From a filamentous cyanobacterium ESFC-1 (GTDB taxonomy: Bacteria > Cyanobacteriota > Cyanobacteriia > Cyanobacteriales > Spirulinaceae), in the NCBI GenBank assembly GCA_000380225.1, contig KB904821.1, positions 2,636,196 through 2,700,195 of the forward strand: 64,000 bases of DNA. Reading direction: 5' to 3'. The translations under genes were made by a program, and so were the position numbers. The notes beneath the pieces are model-generated. The model worked only from the letters and a program-made list of their open reading frames with translations, was not told the origin of the DNA and ran no database searches. Below are positions 51,702 to 54,927 of the stretch, one piece after another; the first letter of the stretch is position 1, and the number at the start of each line of letters is the position of its first letter.

Positions 51702-53129
51702 CTAATGACTGGTTTGTAACTGTTCGTAGTAAGTCAGGGCGAGTTTGTCGATGGTGTCGTAGCCTTCGACGGGTTCGACCCCGGCTTCGCGCAGCATTTC
51801 TTGGGGACAGTCGCCAATCTTGGCTGAAATAACGGCTTTACAGTCTTTAATCGCGGCGATAATGTTGTCGAGGGTGGCGGCTTCACCATAACCCCCTTGA
51901 CAGTAAAGATCGACTTTGCGGTGACCGATAAACTTAACGTCTACACCGTCTACTTCAAAGATTTGGAATTCTTTGGCGTGACCGAAGTGTTGATTAACAA
52001 TGCCACCCCCTTTGGTAGAAACGGCAATCAGGACTTTTTCACCTCGTTTTTGATGGGCTGTGGCTTGTTGGGCTTTAGCGACTTTGAGGGCTTCGCGGAC
52101 TTGTTGAATGCTTTCGCGCACTTCTTGGCGTTTTTCCAGATTGTATTCTGGAGTCATTTCTAAGAATTTTTGTTTGGTAAATTCTTGGGAACGGTCTTCA
52201 CCGAGTAAGCCCACGGCATCTGCCCGACATTGGCGACAGTGGCGCATCATTTTCATGTTGCCCGAACAACTGTCTTGTAAGGCTTTGAGTTCTTTGGGAT
52301 TGGGCCCGCGTTGTCCGGTTAAGCCGAAGTAGGTGCCGTGTTCGGGGGCAGAGATTAAGGGCATGATGTTATGCAAGAATGCCCCTTTCGAGCGAATTAC
52401 TTCGTCTACTTCGACGAGGTGTTCGTCGTTAATCCCCGGAATCATCACGGAGTTGACTTTACAAAGGACATCGGCTTCTTGGAGGGCTTGTAAACCTTCC
52501 ATTTGCCGTTCGTGCAGGATTTGGGCGGCTTCTTCACCTTTCCAGCGTTTGCGTTGGTAGCGTACCCAAGGATAGATTTTTGTCCCAACTTTGGGGTCTA
52601 CCATATTAATAGTAATGGTGACGTGATCGATGTTGAGTTCTTTAATCTTTTCTACATAGTCGGGCAGCATCAAGCCGTTGGTAGACAAGCAGAGTTTGAT
52701 GTCTGGGGCTTGTTCGGCAACCAGTTCAAAGGTGCGGAAGGTTTGTTTGGGATTGGCAAGGGGGTCACCAGGACCGGCAATGCCGAGTACGCTCATTTGC
52801 GGAATTTTCCCGGCAATAACCAGAGCTTTGTGGGCGGCTTCTTCGGGGGTGAGTAGTTCGCTGACGACTCCTGGGCGGCTTTCGTTGGCGCAGTCATACT
52901 TGCGATTACAGAAGTTGCACTGAATGTTGCAAGCGGGGGCGACGGCAACGTGCATTCTGGCGAAATGATGATGCGCTTCTTCGCTATAGCAGGGATGGTT
53001 TTCGATTCGTTCTTGAAGTTTCGGATCGATTTGTTGGGGTGTGGTGGAGCTACAGCCGCATTTTTGAGCAGCTTTCTTAGCTTGTGTTTCGGTTTCCGAG
53101 GCTAAGGAGGTGTGAGTCGTGGGTGACAT
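51702..53129 (-). CDS. nifB: FeMo-co core synthase NifB
   Basis: A 475-aa radical-SAM enzyme that makes NifB-co, the 8Fe-9S-C core. Radical-SAM Cys67, Cys71 and Cys74 ([15 protein letters not shown]), upstream Cys-rich CGCSS, GxIxGxGD-like IAGPGDPL and the C-terminal NifX-like domain ([23 protein letters not shown]) are present. It is the first gene of the leftward arm, and its leader lies in the large regulatory region to the right. Confidence 0.96.
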
Positions 53130-53372
53130 TAAATTGAATTCCGCAATAGATGGTATGGACTAAAAACAAAAATTGACGTAGATATAACACCGAGTCTGGA
53201 ATATAGAGATAGAGGTTAAATAGGTGGGACTGGTGCGATCGCGTTACTCGAACGGGGTTTCAGGCTCAATCATTAAAGGTGACAACAGTTAGGGGTTGAG
53301 GCTGAACTCGGAAGGTTCGATGACGTTATGAAAGTTATATCATCGGGTTTTCTGGGGCGGGTTATCTTTGCA

Positions 53373-53494
53373 CTCGGTTAGTTTGATTGAATTACTTAGG
53401 ATGTACTCAAACCTCCAAACCCTTGTGGCCTGGGGGCTAATTTTTTTGGGGGGGGTGGGCTACGAGTATTTTCGGAGTGGGGGGCTAGTATTTA
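53373..53494 (-). promoter_or_regulatory. Mirror module facing nifB
   Basis: Read on the minus strand: AATACTAGCCCC, then AAAATACTC, then CCCCCCCCAAAAAAA and TTAG, then TTTGAGTACATCCTAAGTAA and TTCAATCAAACTAACC. The same blocks in the same order appear on the plus strand at 53936-54090. The last block would leave a nifB leader of about 240 bases. Confidence 0.6.
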
Positions 53495-53734
53495 TCCATG
53501 CGGACTCTGGTATTTCTTCTACTCGCGGTCTAAAGGTGATGAGCTAAGGGTTTGAGGGGGATTTGAGGGGGGATTTGCGGGGGAAATATTTTGTACTCAG
53601 ATGGGATTTTGAGTGGAAAAAGGGGGAGAGGAGTTGTCGGGCCTCTCCTAATAATGTAATGCGATCGCGATCGAGCGAAATTCAATTTTTGTTTTCTAAT
53701 GGCGGAATTGGGGGTCTTTCCCGAATCCGTATCC

Positions 53735-53740
53735 AATTTA
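53735..53740 (-). promoter_or_regulatory. Candidate -10 box of NtcA-type promoter toward nifB
   Basis: On the minus strand TAAATT fits TAN3T and lies 23 bases after the TAC of the upstream NtcA box, the spacing of class II NtcA-activated promoters. A start about 7 bases on would give a leader of roughly 600 bases. Confidence 0.5.
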
Positions 53741-53763
53741 ACATTTAGAATTTGAGCGAGTTT

Positions 53764-53777
53764 GTAGCGGTTCGTAC
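53764..53777. promoter_or_regulatory. NtcA box 1 (GTA-N8-TAC)
   Basis: GTAGCGGTTCGTAC is a perfect match to the NtcA consensus, bound by the 2-oxoglutarate-responsive nitrogen regulator. Confidence 0.7.
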
Positions 53778-53793
53778 TTTTCTTAAATAAAAT

Positions 53794-53807
53794 GTAGCAG
53801 TCGCTAC
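53794..53807. promoter_or_regulatory. NtcA box 2 (GTA-N8-TAC)
   Basis: GTAGCAGTCGCTAC is a second perfect NtcA consensus exactly 30 bases from the first, about three helical turns, so two dimers could sit on the same face. A TATTCT lies 17 bases further on the plus strand, closer than usual. Confidence 0.65.
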
Positions 53808-53935
53808 AAAGCCCATGATAACTGTATTCTGCGATCGCGAGAAAACACCCCCCTTTTGAGTACCCGATTTCCCCAGACTCAAAGGGTGCGATCGCGCAGT
53901 CTGACTGAATTGGAGCGATTTTGGGTTTGAGTACT

Positions 53936-54090
53936 GAATACTAGCCCCTTGGTCAAAAAATACTCAGACCCCCCCCAAAAAATACTAGCAGGTGACCCCA
54001 AAAATAAAGTTTAACGAGTCTGAAACCCTGACGACACGGGGATTTTATTTTTTTGAGTACAATCTAACCAATCCAATCAATCTAACCTTG
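53936..54090 (+). promoter_or_regulatory. Mirror module facing cysE/nifP
   Basis: GAATACTAGCCCC, AAAAAATACTC, CCCCCCCCAAAAAATACTAG, then after a longer gap TTTGAGTACAATCTAACCAA and TCCAATCAATCTAACC. The final 39 bases match the nifB-facing copy at 30 positions by eye. The spacing between the last two blocks is about 38 bases longer than on the nifB side. Confidence 0.6.
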
Positions 54091-54174
54091 GGCAGTTGGG
54101 GAGGGCGGCGCGATCGCTATTGTTATAAGCATCATAGTAAGTCCGAACCCGATTCACCTCATCCCCCAAAGATT

Positions 54175-54927
54175 GTGCAAGAGTCTATATTGATCGAAAG
54201 AGAACAAAAGAGAAAGCGCCACTCGTCTCGCCCCCAAGTCAACTTACCGGGGTTAAGCTTTTGGCACGATCTCCAAATTATCTTCGATCGCGACCCGGCA
54301 GCCCATCATTGGCTTGAGGTGTTAATCTGCTATCCTGGCGTTCATGCCTTGGCGTTTCATCGGCTTGCCCATTGGCTGCATCAGCAAAACATTCCCTTAA
54401 TTCCCCGGATCATCTCCCAAATTGGGCGTTTCCTCACAGGAATTGAGATTCATCCTGGTGCAACCATCGGCAAAGGAGTCTTTATCGATCATGGTATGGG
54501 AGTGGTGATTGGCGAAACCGCCATTGTGGGCGATTATTGCCTAATTTATCAAAACGCTACCCTCGGCGGTACGGGTAAACAAACCGGAAAACGCCATCCT
54601 ACCCTCGGTCACCATGTTGTGGTTGGGGCGGGGGCCAAAGTTTTAGGTAATATCACCATTGGTCAGAATGTGCGCGTTGGTGCGGGTTCAATCGTACTGC
54701 GGGATGTTCCTAATGATTGTACCGTTGTGGGTGTTCCTGGGCGAATTGTGTCCCGTACAGGTCACGGTTGCCCCCTCGAACACCCCCTCGAACACGGTCA
54801 ACTCCCCGATCCAGAAGCGCAAATGATCCGCACTTTACTCAATCGCATTGAAGCCCTCGAACAACAGCTTCAACCCCTTCGCCCTTTATCCTCCACTCAA
54901 AACCATGAGACATCCGAGACCAACTGA
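54175..54927 (+). CDS. cysE: nif-linked serine O-acetyltransferase (CysE/NifP)
   Basis: A ~250-aa serine acetyltransferase that makes O-acetylserine, boosting cysteine for Fe-S synthesis. [23 protein letters not shown] and HRLAHWLH form the helical domain; hexapeptide repeats start at [19 protein letters not shown], with the catalytic His-containing [13 protein letters not shown]. Start uncertain: I use a GTG; a TTG 15 bases on has CAAGAG before it. A GTG at 53992 would add 61 residues but falls inside the promoter-like mirror module, so I reject it. Confidence 0.85.

Follow-up and report, generated by a model that had tools for sequence, protein, structure and literature searches.

The intergenic region between the divergent nifB and nifP genes of the filamentous cyanobacterium ESFC-1 probably holds a switch of two layers, in which a pair of outward-facing promoters, apparently read by CnfR, encloses a gene for a small RNA (sRNA) that would pair with the start of the nifB message. 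The region belongs to a stretch of 64,000 nucleotides (contig KB904821.1, positions 2,636,196 to 2,700,195 of the forward strand), which is called the window below and to which all coordinates without a locus label refer. The sRNA gene between the CnfR elements has apparently gone unreported so far, and no report of a nifB-linked sRNA was found in the accessible portions of the openly licensed literature. From the comparison of many genomes, it is fairly likely that this sRNA stands for a conserved nif-linked family, encoded between or upstream of the CnfR elements, which co-evolves with the nifB start and represses it (together with the starts of nifP and a small DUF2949 gene in some lineages). 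Such a family would restrain the synthesis of nitrogenase cofactor post-transcriptionally, and would have been retained in diatom endosymbionts that fix nitrogen as well as in one genus without nifB.

In the window, nifB occupies 51702-53129 on the minus strand, with its ATG start codon at 53127-53129 and matches to TIGR01290, Radical_SAM and Nitro_FeMo-Co. On the plus strand, nifP (54175-54927) encodes a cysE-like serine O-acetyltransferase (TIGR01172, 243 bits); its GTG start was picked from the reading frame and from relatives, and loci L003, L007 and L008 align from that codon. When the left half of the intergenic region was aligned with the reverse complement of the right half (local gapped alignment), the two arms matched as an inverted pair with a score of 49, whereas 1000 dinucleotide shuffles averaged 13.9 (sd 2.0) and never exceeded 25.5. 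Aligned directly, the same arms score 13. The inverted alignment extends outward to 53266 and 54197, past the span first described. An inverted duplication of one activator-dependent promoter had been suspected here in the preliminary description, and both these scores and the mirrored module at other nifB/nifP loci bear this out.

The architecture of the arms required one correction to that description. It had listed four blocks mirrored in the same order outward, and all of the strings are indeed present on both sides: AATACTAGCCCC at 53937-53948 (plus strand) and 53481-53492 (minus strand), AAAATACTC at 53957-53965 (plus) and 53464-53472 (minus), a C8A6 tract at 53969-53982 (plus) and 53442-53455 (minus), and TTTGAGTACA at 54052-54061 (plus) and 53402-53411 (minus). 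However, only the block from TTTGAGTACA to CTAACC is in register between the arms, and the inter-arm identities of AATACTAGCCCC, AAAATACTC and C8A6 are displaced by one 22-bp repeat. Because these identical strings are one box out of step, they reflect a repeat internal to the module. The final blocks of 39 bases, estimated to agree at about 30 positions, were counted to agree at 31, and GAGTAC was found five times as had been noted, at 53858, 53929 and 54055 on the plus strand and at 53403 and 53593 on the minus strand, each copy facing the nearer gene.

The internal repeat consists of three AATAC boxes per arm, spaced by exactly 22 bp. They start at 53937, 53959 and 53981 in the right arm (plus strand), and in the left arm (minus strand) they comprise AATACCAG at 53507-53514 followed by boxes at 53487-53492 and 53465-53470. 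Alignment with 17 other loci pairs the first AATAC box of the right arm with the AATACCAG box of the left arm. In each arm a GAGTA site stands 8-10 bp before the first AATAC box, and the last GAGTAC comes 106-118 bp after that box; in the left arm the GAGTA that opens the element is degenerate (GCGAGTAG, with GAGTA at 53520-53524). The left CnfR-type element thus covers 53402-53524 on the minus strand (degenerate GAGTA, three AATAC boxes, C/A tract and TTTGAGTACA), and the right one covers 53926-54061 on the plus strand (TTTGAGTAC, three AATAC boxes, A tract and TTTGAGTACA). An outer TTTGAGTAC is located on the nifP side at 53855-53863 (plus strand), and similar sites were seen by eye in many loci. 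Both arms end in a predicted extended -10 with the conserved TGnTA that closes the module, namely TGATATAAC at 53334-53342 (minus strand) for nifB and TGTTATAAG at 54121-54129 (plus strand) for nifP. A simple sigma-70 scan returned no sigma-70-type promoter pair (0 pairs).

The inverted duplication is old, since the arms are nearer to their counterparts in other genomes than to each other. Among the 20 loci with both arms in the alignment, the nifB-side arm was nearer to the nifB-side arm of another genome than to its own partner in 20 of 20; for the nifP-side arm, a counterpart in another genome was the nearer one in 18 of 20. The mean identity of arms was 53.7% within a genome, and 54.2% and 51.8% for like arms between genomes. 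A recent duplication was ruled out in the window: its two arms share 54% identity, lower than the 64% and 60% that they show to their nearest counterparts elsewhere, the arms of L008.

Conservation of the module was surveyed in 92 nifB loci including the window, taken from the best 80 of 443 nifB relatives plus further relatives. Thirty-four of the 92, again with the window, have nifP divergently upstream; L005 is cut by a contig end, and the nifP side is partial in L049 and L114, which are one and the same contig. When the profile contained only the two arms of the window, the module was found upstream of nifB in 87 of the 91 other loci, and its mirrored form upstream of nifP in 21 of the 33 other divergent loci (E<=1e-3), the best E among 273 shuffled sequences being 0.86. 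The blocks are conserved in related nif clusters. A profile of 70 elements placed the module before nifB in 92/92 and before divergent nifP in 34/34 loci, figures that are largely in-sample. In L115 and L120 the nifP-side element is present and no nifP was found in the stretch. The consensus of the module reads TGAGTACA, three AAATACTnG-CCC boxes, an A tract, TGAGTACA again, TTAATnAATnnAATnAATC, and the extended -10 TGnTA.

CnfR had also been named as the likely reader of this module. This assignment is supported by a CnfR-type gene in the genome, by the extended -10s without a sigma-70-type pair, and by the fit to published CnfR elements, so that an inverted duplication of one activator-dependent promoter, presumably read by CnfR, is the favoured and best reading of the arms. 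The CnfR-type protein is encoded elsewhere in the genome; it has 535 aa with an N-terminal 4Fe-4S dicluster domain and a C-terminal HTH_3, and is called CnfR by this domain make-up, no CnfR model having matched it in Pfam or NCBIfam. When the genome itself was searched with a sequence-only model of the module, which includes both arms, the right arm was recovered at E 1.1e-29 and the left arm at E 1.6e-29. One further strong match appeared at E 3.9e-8, and the next one stood at 0.10. This third CnfR-type element (L198, G000:C1:2835837-2835967) precedes a nafY-type gene, whose product of 243 aa carries DIMCO_N and Nitro_FeMo-Co domains, a make-up that we take to be that of NafY.

Between the CnfR elements, on the nifB-directed strand, a further conserved block, which the preliminary description had missed together with the 22-bp period of the arms, was first recognised in loci aligned on the nifP element. 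It consists of an extended -10, the sequence GATACAGAATTGAATTyCGn, a few bases, a hairpin of the type CTGGAG...CTCCAG, and a T tract. A profile made from 13 loci found the block in 80 of the 91 other nifB loci (E<=0.1), always on the nifB-directed strand, with L006 and L032 matching at the promoter end only. The 11 loci without a match to this profile are L001, L002, L005, L009, L014, L054, L111, L116, L117, L120 and L121; of these, L009, L014, L116, L117 and L120 do give matches of mixed strength to the general sRNA model, R1. The distance from the nifB element outward to the sRNA is about 180 bp in most Nostocales loci, with 249 in L011 and L067. The predicted RNA would measure roughly 60-70 nt. 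The TGnTA of its extended -10 is invariant in the 26 rows of alignment A1, which holds 26 of the 32 non-redundant loci (without L003, L006, L032, L077, L078 and L118). The cells of the hairpin are 88% paired, a T tract follows in most loci displayed, and the fold of the window copy has a z of -1.26; covariation in the terminator hairpin was not above that of shuffles. Rfam gave no match in 53100-54300 of the window up to E 5. Among six loci searched up to E 1 there were four weak Rfam matches, all in L077 and none at the sRNA block, and five loci searched at gathering scores gave no match. As a side observation, L010:4552-4588, L006:4525-4553 and L003:4482-4514 hold an extra sRNA promoter and the first bases of the RNA adjoining the nifB-side element, without the full RNA.

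The occurrence of the sRNA was compared with that of nifB. In 386 genomes of the phylum, matches to R1 were found in 55 and nifB in 73, with both in 48 (Fisher p 5e-35, a value that ignores shared ancestry). In 47 of these 48 genomes, sRNA and nifB share a strand, and the sRNA precedes the conserved part of nifB by 410-1093 nt. Twenty-five of the 73 nifB genomes have no R1 match, where the filters used lose weak matches. Conversely, seven genomes carry the sRNA without a nifB match, and all of them belong to one genus, g47, which is perhaps Microcystis. Three copies of this genus (L161, L162 and L167, from G124, G335 and G276) have seed and hairpin intact and adjoin the same gene of 475 aa, a family 2 glycosyltransferase in L161. 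Second copies of the sRNA were observed in two small genomes of genus g54 (L163:2881-2963 and L164:2825-2907) beside a peroxiredoxin-type gene, with a Redoxin domain in L163; these copies keep the seed and miss the usual -10.

Across loci, the sRNA seed matches the start region of nifB as its reverse complement. For example, the match extends over 14 nt in Crocosphaera watsonii WH 8501 (L033), 13 nt in Fischerella thermalis PCC 7521 (L060), 15 nt in Calothrix brevissima NIES-22 (L069), and 18 nt, all perfect, in Xenococcaceae MO_167.B52 (L008). In the endosymbiont of Epithemia turgida (L059) it comprises 13 nt with a compensated change, and in Microseira wollei (L077) 14 nt, where a change of length is compensated. 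Single compensated changes occur in L059 (CACGGAATTCGAT / ATCGAATTCCGTG) and L061 (GCGAAACTCAAT / ATTGAGTTTCGC), and compensated length changes in L077 and L113. Among the 92 loci, the bases before and at the nifB start codon (GCGAAATTCAATG, CACGGAATTCAATG) are nearly fixed within lineages, which is seemingly unusual for a leader. Of 81 loci with the window included, 64 fit one register; if G-U is counted as a pair, all 12 of the 12 positions are paired in 38 of them, 11 in 17, and 10 in 9. The 17 set aside from this register are L003, L004, L006, L007, L008, L032, L041, L049, L072, L075, L077, L112, L113, L114, L115, L118 and the window.

Co-variation of seed and target was assessed on the 18 distinct seed/target pairs by shuffles, all of which ignore shared ancestry. 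It was found that 93.5% of cells are paired against 89.1% (sd 0.7) when shuffled, that 11 cells are changed on both sides against 2.5, and that the covariation score is 0.219 against 0.117, none of the 500 shuffles being as high in any of these measures. Watson-Crick pairs number 195 of 216 against 179.5 (sd 3.2), a value reached in 0 of 5000 permutations. A weaker measure, pairs changed on both sides, was equalled by 29 of 500 shuffles, and further pair types were not raised (232 of 500 as high). Loci with nifB that were fetched later give a helix of at least 11 bp in 23 of 28 and no 11-bp helix in 5 of 28, several of them repeating species or sequences of the first set. Redundancy in the sample includes the single contig behind L049 and L114, and G208, which repeats L034, among others. 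As a whole, judged from these alignments, the family appears to have a conserved seed complementary to the start of its target, with compensated changes.

The pairing is uneven among lineages and loci. In a Nostoc subclade it is broken, with one A-C mismatch in 11 loci, two mismatches in 6, and a few single cases; the lost pairs lie in mid-seed, and one line (L061) has restored them. This loss and restoration fits a decay of constraint as well as noise. When seeds were shuffled 200 times in 30 of the 32 non-redundant loci (without L006 and L032), at least one shuffled seed did as well as the real one in 12 of the 30, and at least 31 of 200 were as good in L022, L029, L051, L078 and L118. In only 38 of 81 loci does the nifB start rank first among all contiguous-helix sites of the locus. 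Energies of the whole-length duplex from RNA.duplexfold were tried and replaced by these contiguous-helix scores, since several other genes were placed above nifB through long multi-loop structures.

The sRNA gene of the window is predicted at 53617-53733 on the minus strand. It was assigned as a positional homologue and has a GATACGG start as in L003 and L007. Its predicted extended -10, TGTTAAATT, lies at 53735-53743 and has the TGnTA that is invariant in the 26-row sRNA alignment. The start TGTTAAATT-GGATACGG is much like those of L003 and L007, the 5' part is longer, and the RNA would exceed the usual block by about 50 nt. The predicted seed AAATTGAATTTCGC at 53675-53688 (minus strand) pairs with nifB from -15 to -2, that is, with the translation-initiation stretch GCGGAATTCAATTT at 53131-53144 (minus strand), of which it is the reverse complement over 14 bp with one G-U. 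The energy of this helix was reached by 3 of 1000 shuffled sRNAs. In its own genome the 11-mer GCGGAATTCAA occurs solely at the nifB start and at one other place, the latter without a gene start. The predicted intrinsic terminator at 53617-53648 (minus strand) has the hairpin GGAGAGG...CCTCTCC (stem 53648-53642/53631-53625) and a T5 tract at 53621-53617; it is absent from a simple terminator scan whose loop limit is 8, and occupies the same relative place as the hairpins of other loci. Searched with the R1 model, the genome of the window itself yields nothing at E<=1e-3. The window copy may thus be a diverged and weaker member of the sRNA family, and the chance that it still works as such seems slightly better than even.

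Further targets are suggested by the same complementarity. Eight chosen genomes contain the 12-mer CACGGAATTCAA 15 times in all. It stands opposite the sRNA (in one case facing a second copy), at the starts of nifB, at those of nifP in G173 and G208, and at two places elsewhere in G134. In the g47 genomes G124, G335 and G276 the 12-mer target is found only opposite the sRNA. The nifP start reads CACGGAATT(C/T)AATG in ten Crocosphaera-type loci (L013, L018, L025, L027, L033, L034, L038, L057, L059 and L076), CACGAAATTCAATG in L118, and CCGGAATTCAATG in L049/L114. In addition, a second stretch of the sRNA matches the start of a small gene downstream of nifP on the minus strand (L013:2634, L025:1433, L033:2745, L038:2867 and L018:2816). 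This gene encodes 70-74 aa and matches over 11 nt in L013, L025, L033 and L038, and its protein in L013 is a DUF2949; the like place in L018 has a 24-bp match to the sRNA with one G-U, and no reading frame was given there. In some lineages the sRNA could therefore also pair with the starts of nifP and of the small DUF2949 gene. Pairing with nifP was dropped for the window, where no matching nifP start was seen.

Sites of the NtcA type (GTAN8TAC) were surveyed upstream of the sRNA in 33 loci, namely 30 non-redundant ones, the window, L007 and L008. The window has an exact site at 53764-53777 (minus strand), centred at -38.5 of the sRNA with TAAATT as -10, and it is the only one of the 33 loci with an exact site at that place. 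An NtcA promoter of class II would have GTAN8TAC near -41.5 and a TAN3T -10, kept from locus to locus, and NtcA control of the sRNA as a general rule was rejected on this count of one exact class II site in 33 loci. A second site at 53794-53807, also an exact consensus, is centred at -68.5 and is exact in 4 of the 33 (the window, L003, L007 and L008). The same window site belongs to a set of GTAN8TAC that 9 of 36 loci, from several lineages, have outside the nifP element at a constant distance of 105-108 bp; in five of those nine (L040, L062, L063, L111 and L121) the sRNA has another place or was not found. Counted across the intergenic stretches as a whole, GTAN8TAC exceeds expectation only slightly (63 vs 49.8). 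A cluster of near matches at -200 to -230 was dropped, being mostly GTACTCA motifs of the nifP side. In Anabaena, NtcA is reported to bind at a distance of hundreds of bases ahead of the site where nifB transcription begins, according to the accessible part of PMC4284476; the ChIP paper behind this claim (PMC3898017) does not name nifB in its accessible part. A nifB-linked sRNA may explain NtcA bound so far upstream. Transcript ends are on record in partially accessible accounts of two genera: Nodularia has a single strong start 296 nt upstream of nifB, with no such RNA mentioned in the accessible text, and Anabaena RNA-seq gives a 5' end at -282 of nifB.

These features can be combined into a mechanism. 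As the first layer, two outward promoters derived from the old inverted duplication would depend on CnfR, one driving nifB and the other nifP. From published work with relatives, CnfR would bind the boxes under low oxygen and open both promoters, and since steps of 22 bp are about two helical turns, CnfR units could line up along the same side of the helix. As the second layer, a short RNA would start from an extended -10 of its own, run toward nifB, and terminate at its hairpin ahead of the nifB-side CnfR element. Through its seed it would pair with the nifB message, either at the start codon or immediately ahead of it, and most likely block translation. Leaky nif messages would be kept silent in this way until the CnfR-driven messages outnumber the sRNA, which would set a threshold.

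It is unlikely, on the other hand, that only the CnfR promoter pair is functional and that the central block acts as DNA, either as an insulating promoter-terminator or as a protein-binding site, its likeness to the nifB start being a shared operator. The core GAATTC of many sRNA copies is palindromic, the seven genomes of genus g47 keep the block without nifB, and the seed match of the window is modest, all of which would suit a DNA element. The accessible part of PMC8510180 also describes conserved transcription-relevant sites 300-600 bp upstream of the nifB starts of Anabaena variabilis, so that part of the central stretch may act as promoter DNA. However, the match coincides with the start codon of nifB, a place that follows the promoter, and is antisense in the loci compared, and the fact that it runs into non-palindromic flanks (15 nt in L069, 18 nt in L008) and follows the single changes of L059 and L061 is against a shared operator. 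The succession of extended -10, GATAC start, seed, hairpin and T tract is, moreover, the usual order of an sRNA gene. Origin of the block as a by-product of the inverted duplication, or of gene conversion from the nifB leader, would explain the likeness by DNA exchange instead of selection for pairing, and such an event is imaginable at a locus that is already an inverted duplication and whose Crocosphaera-type nifP starts bear the same stretch. This explanation is very improbable, because the identity ends at 10-18 nt where exchange tracts should reach further, the likeness outlasts single substitutions and small indels, and the arms are without a sign of recent exchange in the comparison with other genomes given above.

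The sign of the regulation was also considered. An sRNA that activates, by opening or stabilising the nifB leader through pairing, would have precedents in NfiS and NfiR of Pseudomonas stutzeri, which stabilise the nifK and nifD messages according to the accessible part of PMC9170634, and a position beside nif would presumably suit co-activation. Activation is nevertheless quite unlikely here, as the predicted duplex covers bases at or just before the start codon and, from this position, would normally block initiation. Repression of nifB by the sRNA is therefore kept as the preferred reading. The promoter pair is ordinary among diazotrophic cyanobacteria, and an sRNA that fits the start of nifB would extend cyanobacterial nif control to the level of RNA. 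It would matter as well when nif clusters are transferred to new hosts, since a piece of DNA that ends at the nifB promoter could include the sRNA or lack it.

The closest known system is the CnfR cis-element of Leptolyngbya boryana, which Tsujimoto, Kamiya and Fujita reportedly described for nifB and nifP with motifs I-IX (2016, Mol Microbiol 101:411). The arms resemble it in their position upstream of both divergent operons, in the presence of a CnfR-type gene, in the extended -10 and in the wide conservation among cyanobacteria, and as the place of the module, its extended -10 and the CnfR-type gene all fit, the promoter pair appears to be of an already known kind. The likeness to motifs I-IX is one of description; the 22-bp triple box comes from the present alignments and may be in the 2016 paper. 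The accessible text of PMC5943405 likewise speaks of "motifs I to IX" for CnfR recognition and of divergent nifB and nifP promoters, and that of PMC8510180 describes CnfR-activated nifB promoters with an extended -10 and no -35. For nifB1 and nifB2 of Anabaena variabilis, a conserved TGAGTATA and other motifs upstream (PMC4284476, Fig. 11 legend) and CS1-CS3 (PMC8510180) are given in the accessible parts of these papers. They share the GAGTA core and the extended -10 with the module, whereas the descriptions in those parts have neither a mirror partner nor an sRNA. NsiR4 and other nitrogen-linked cyanobacterial sRNAs are alike in being short RNAs predicted to pair with a start region and repress, in their nitrogen context, and in the NtcA-type sites of some loci. 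However, the target of NsiR4 is gifA (PMC9170634, accessible part), and the nifB-linked sRNA has no Rfam match and is set apart from NsiR by description. NfiS and NfiR of Pseudomonas stutzeri are also sRNAs that pair with nif messages, but they belong to another phylum, target nifK and nifD, and act by stabilising, as the accessible part of the same article states.
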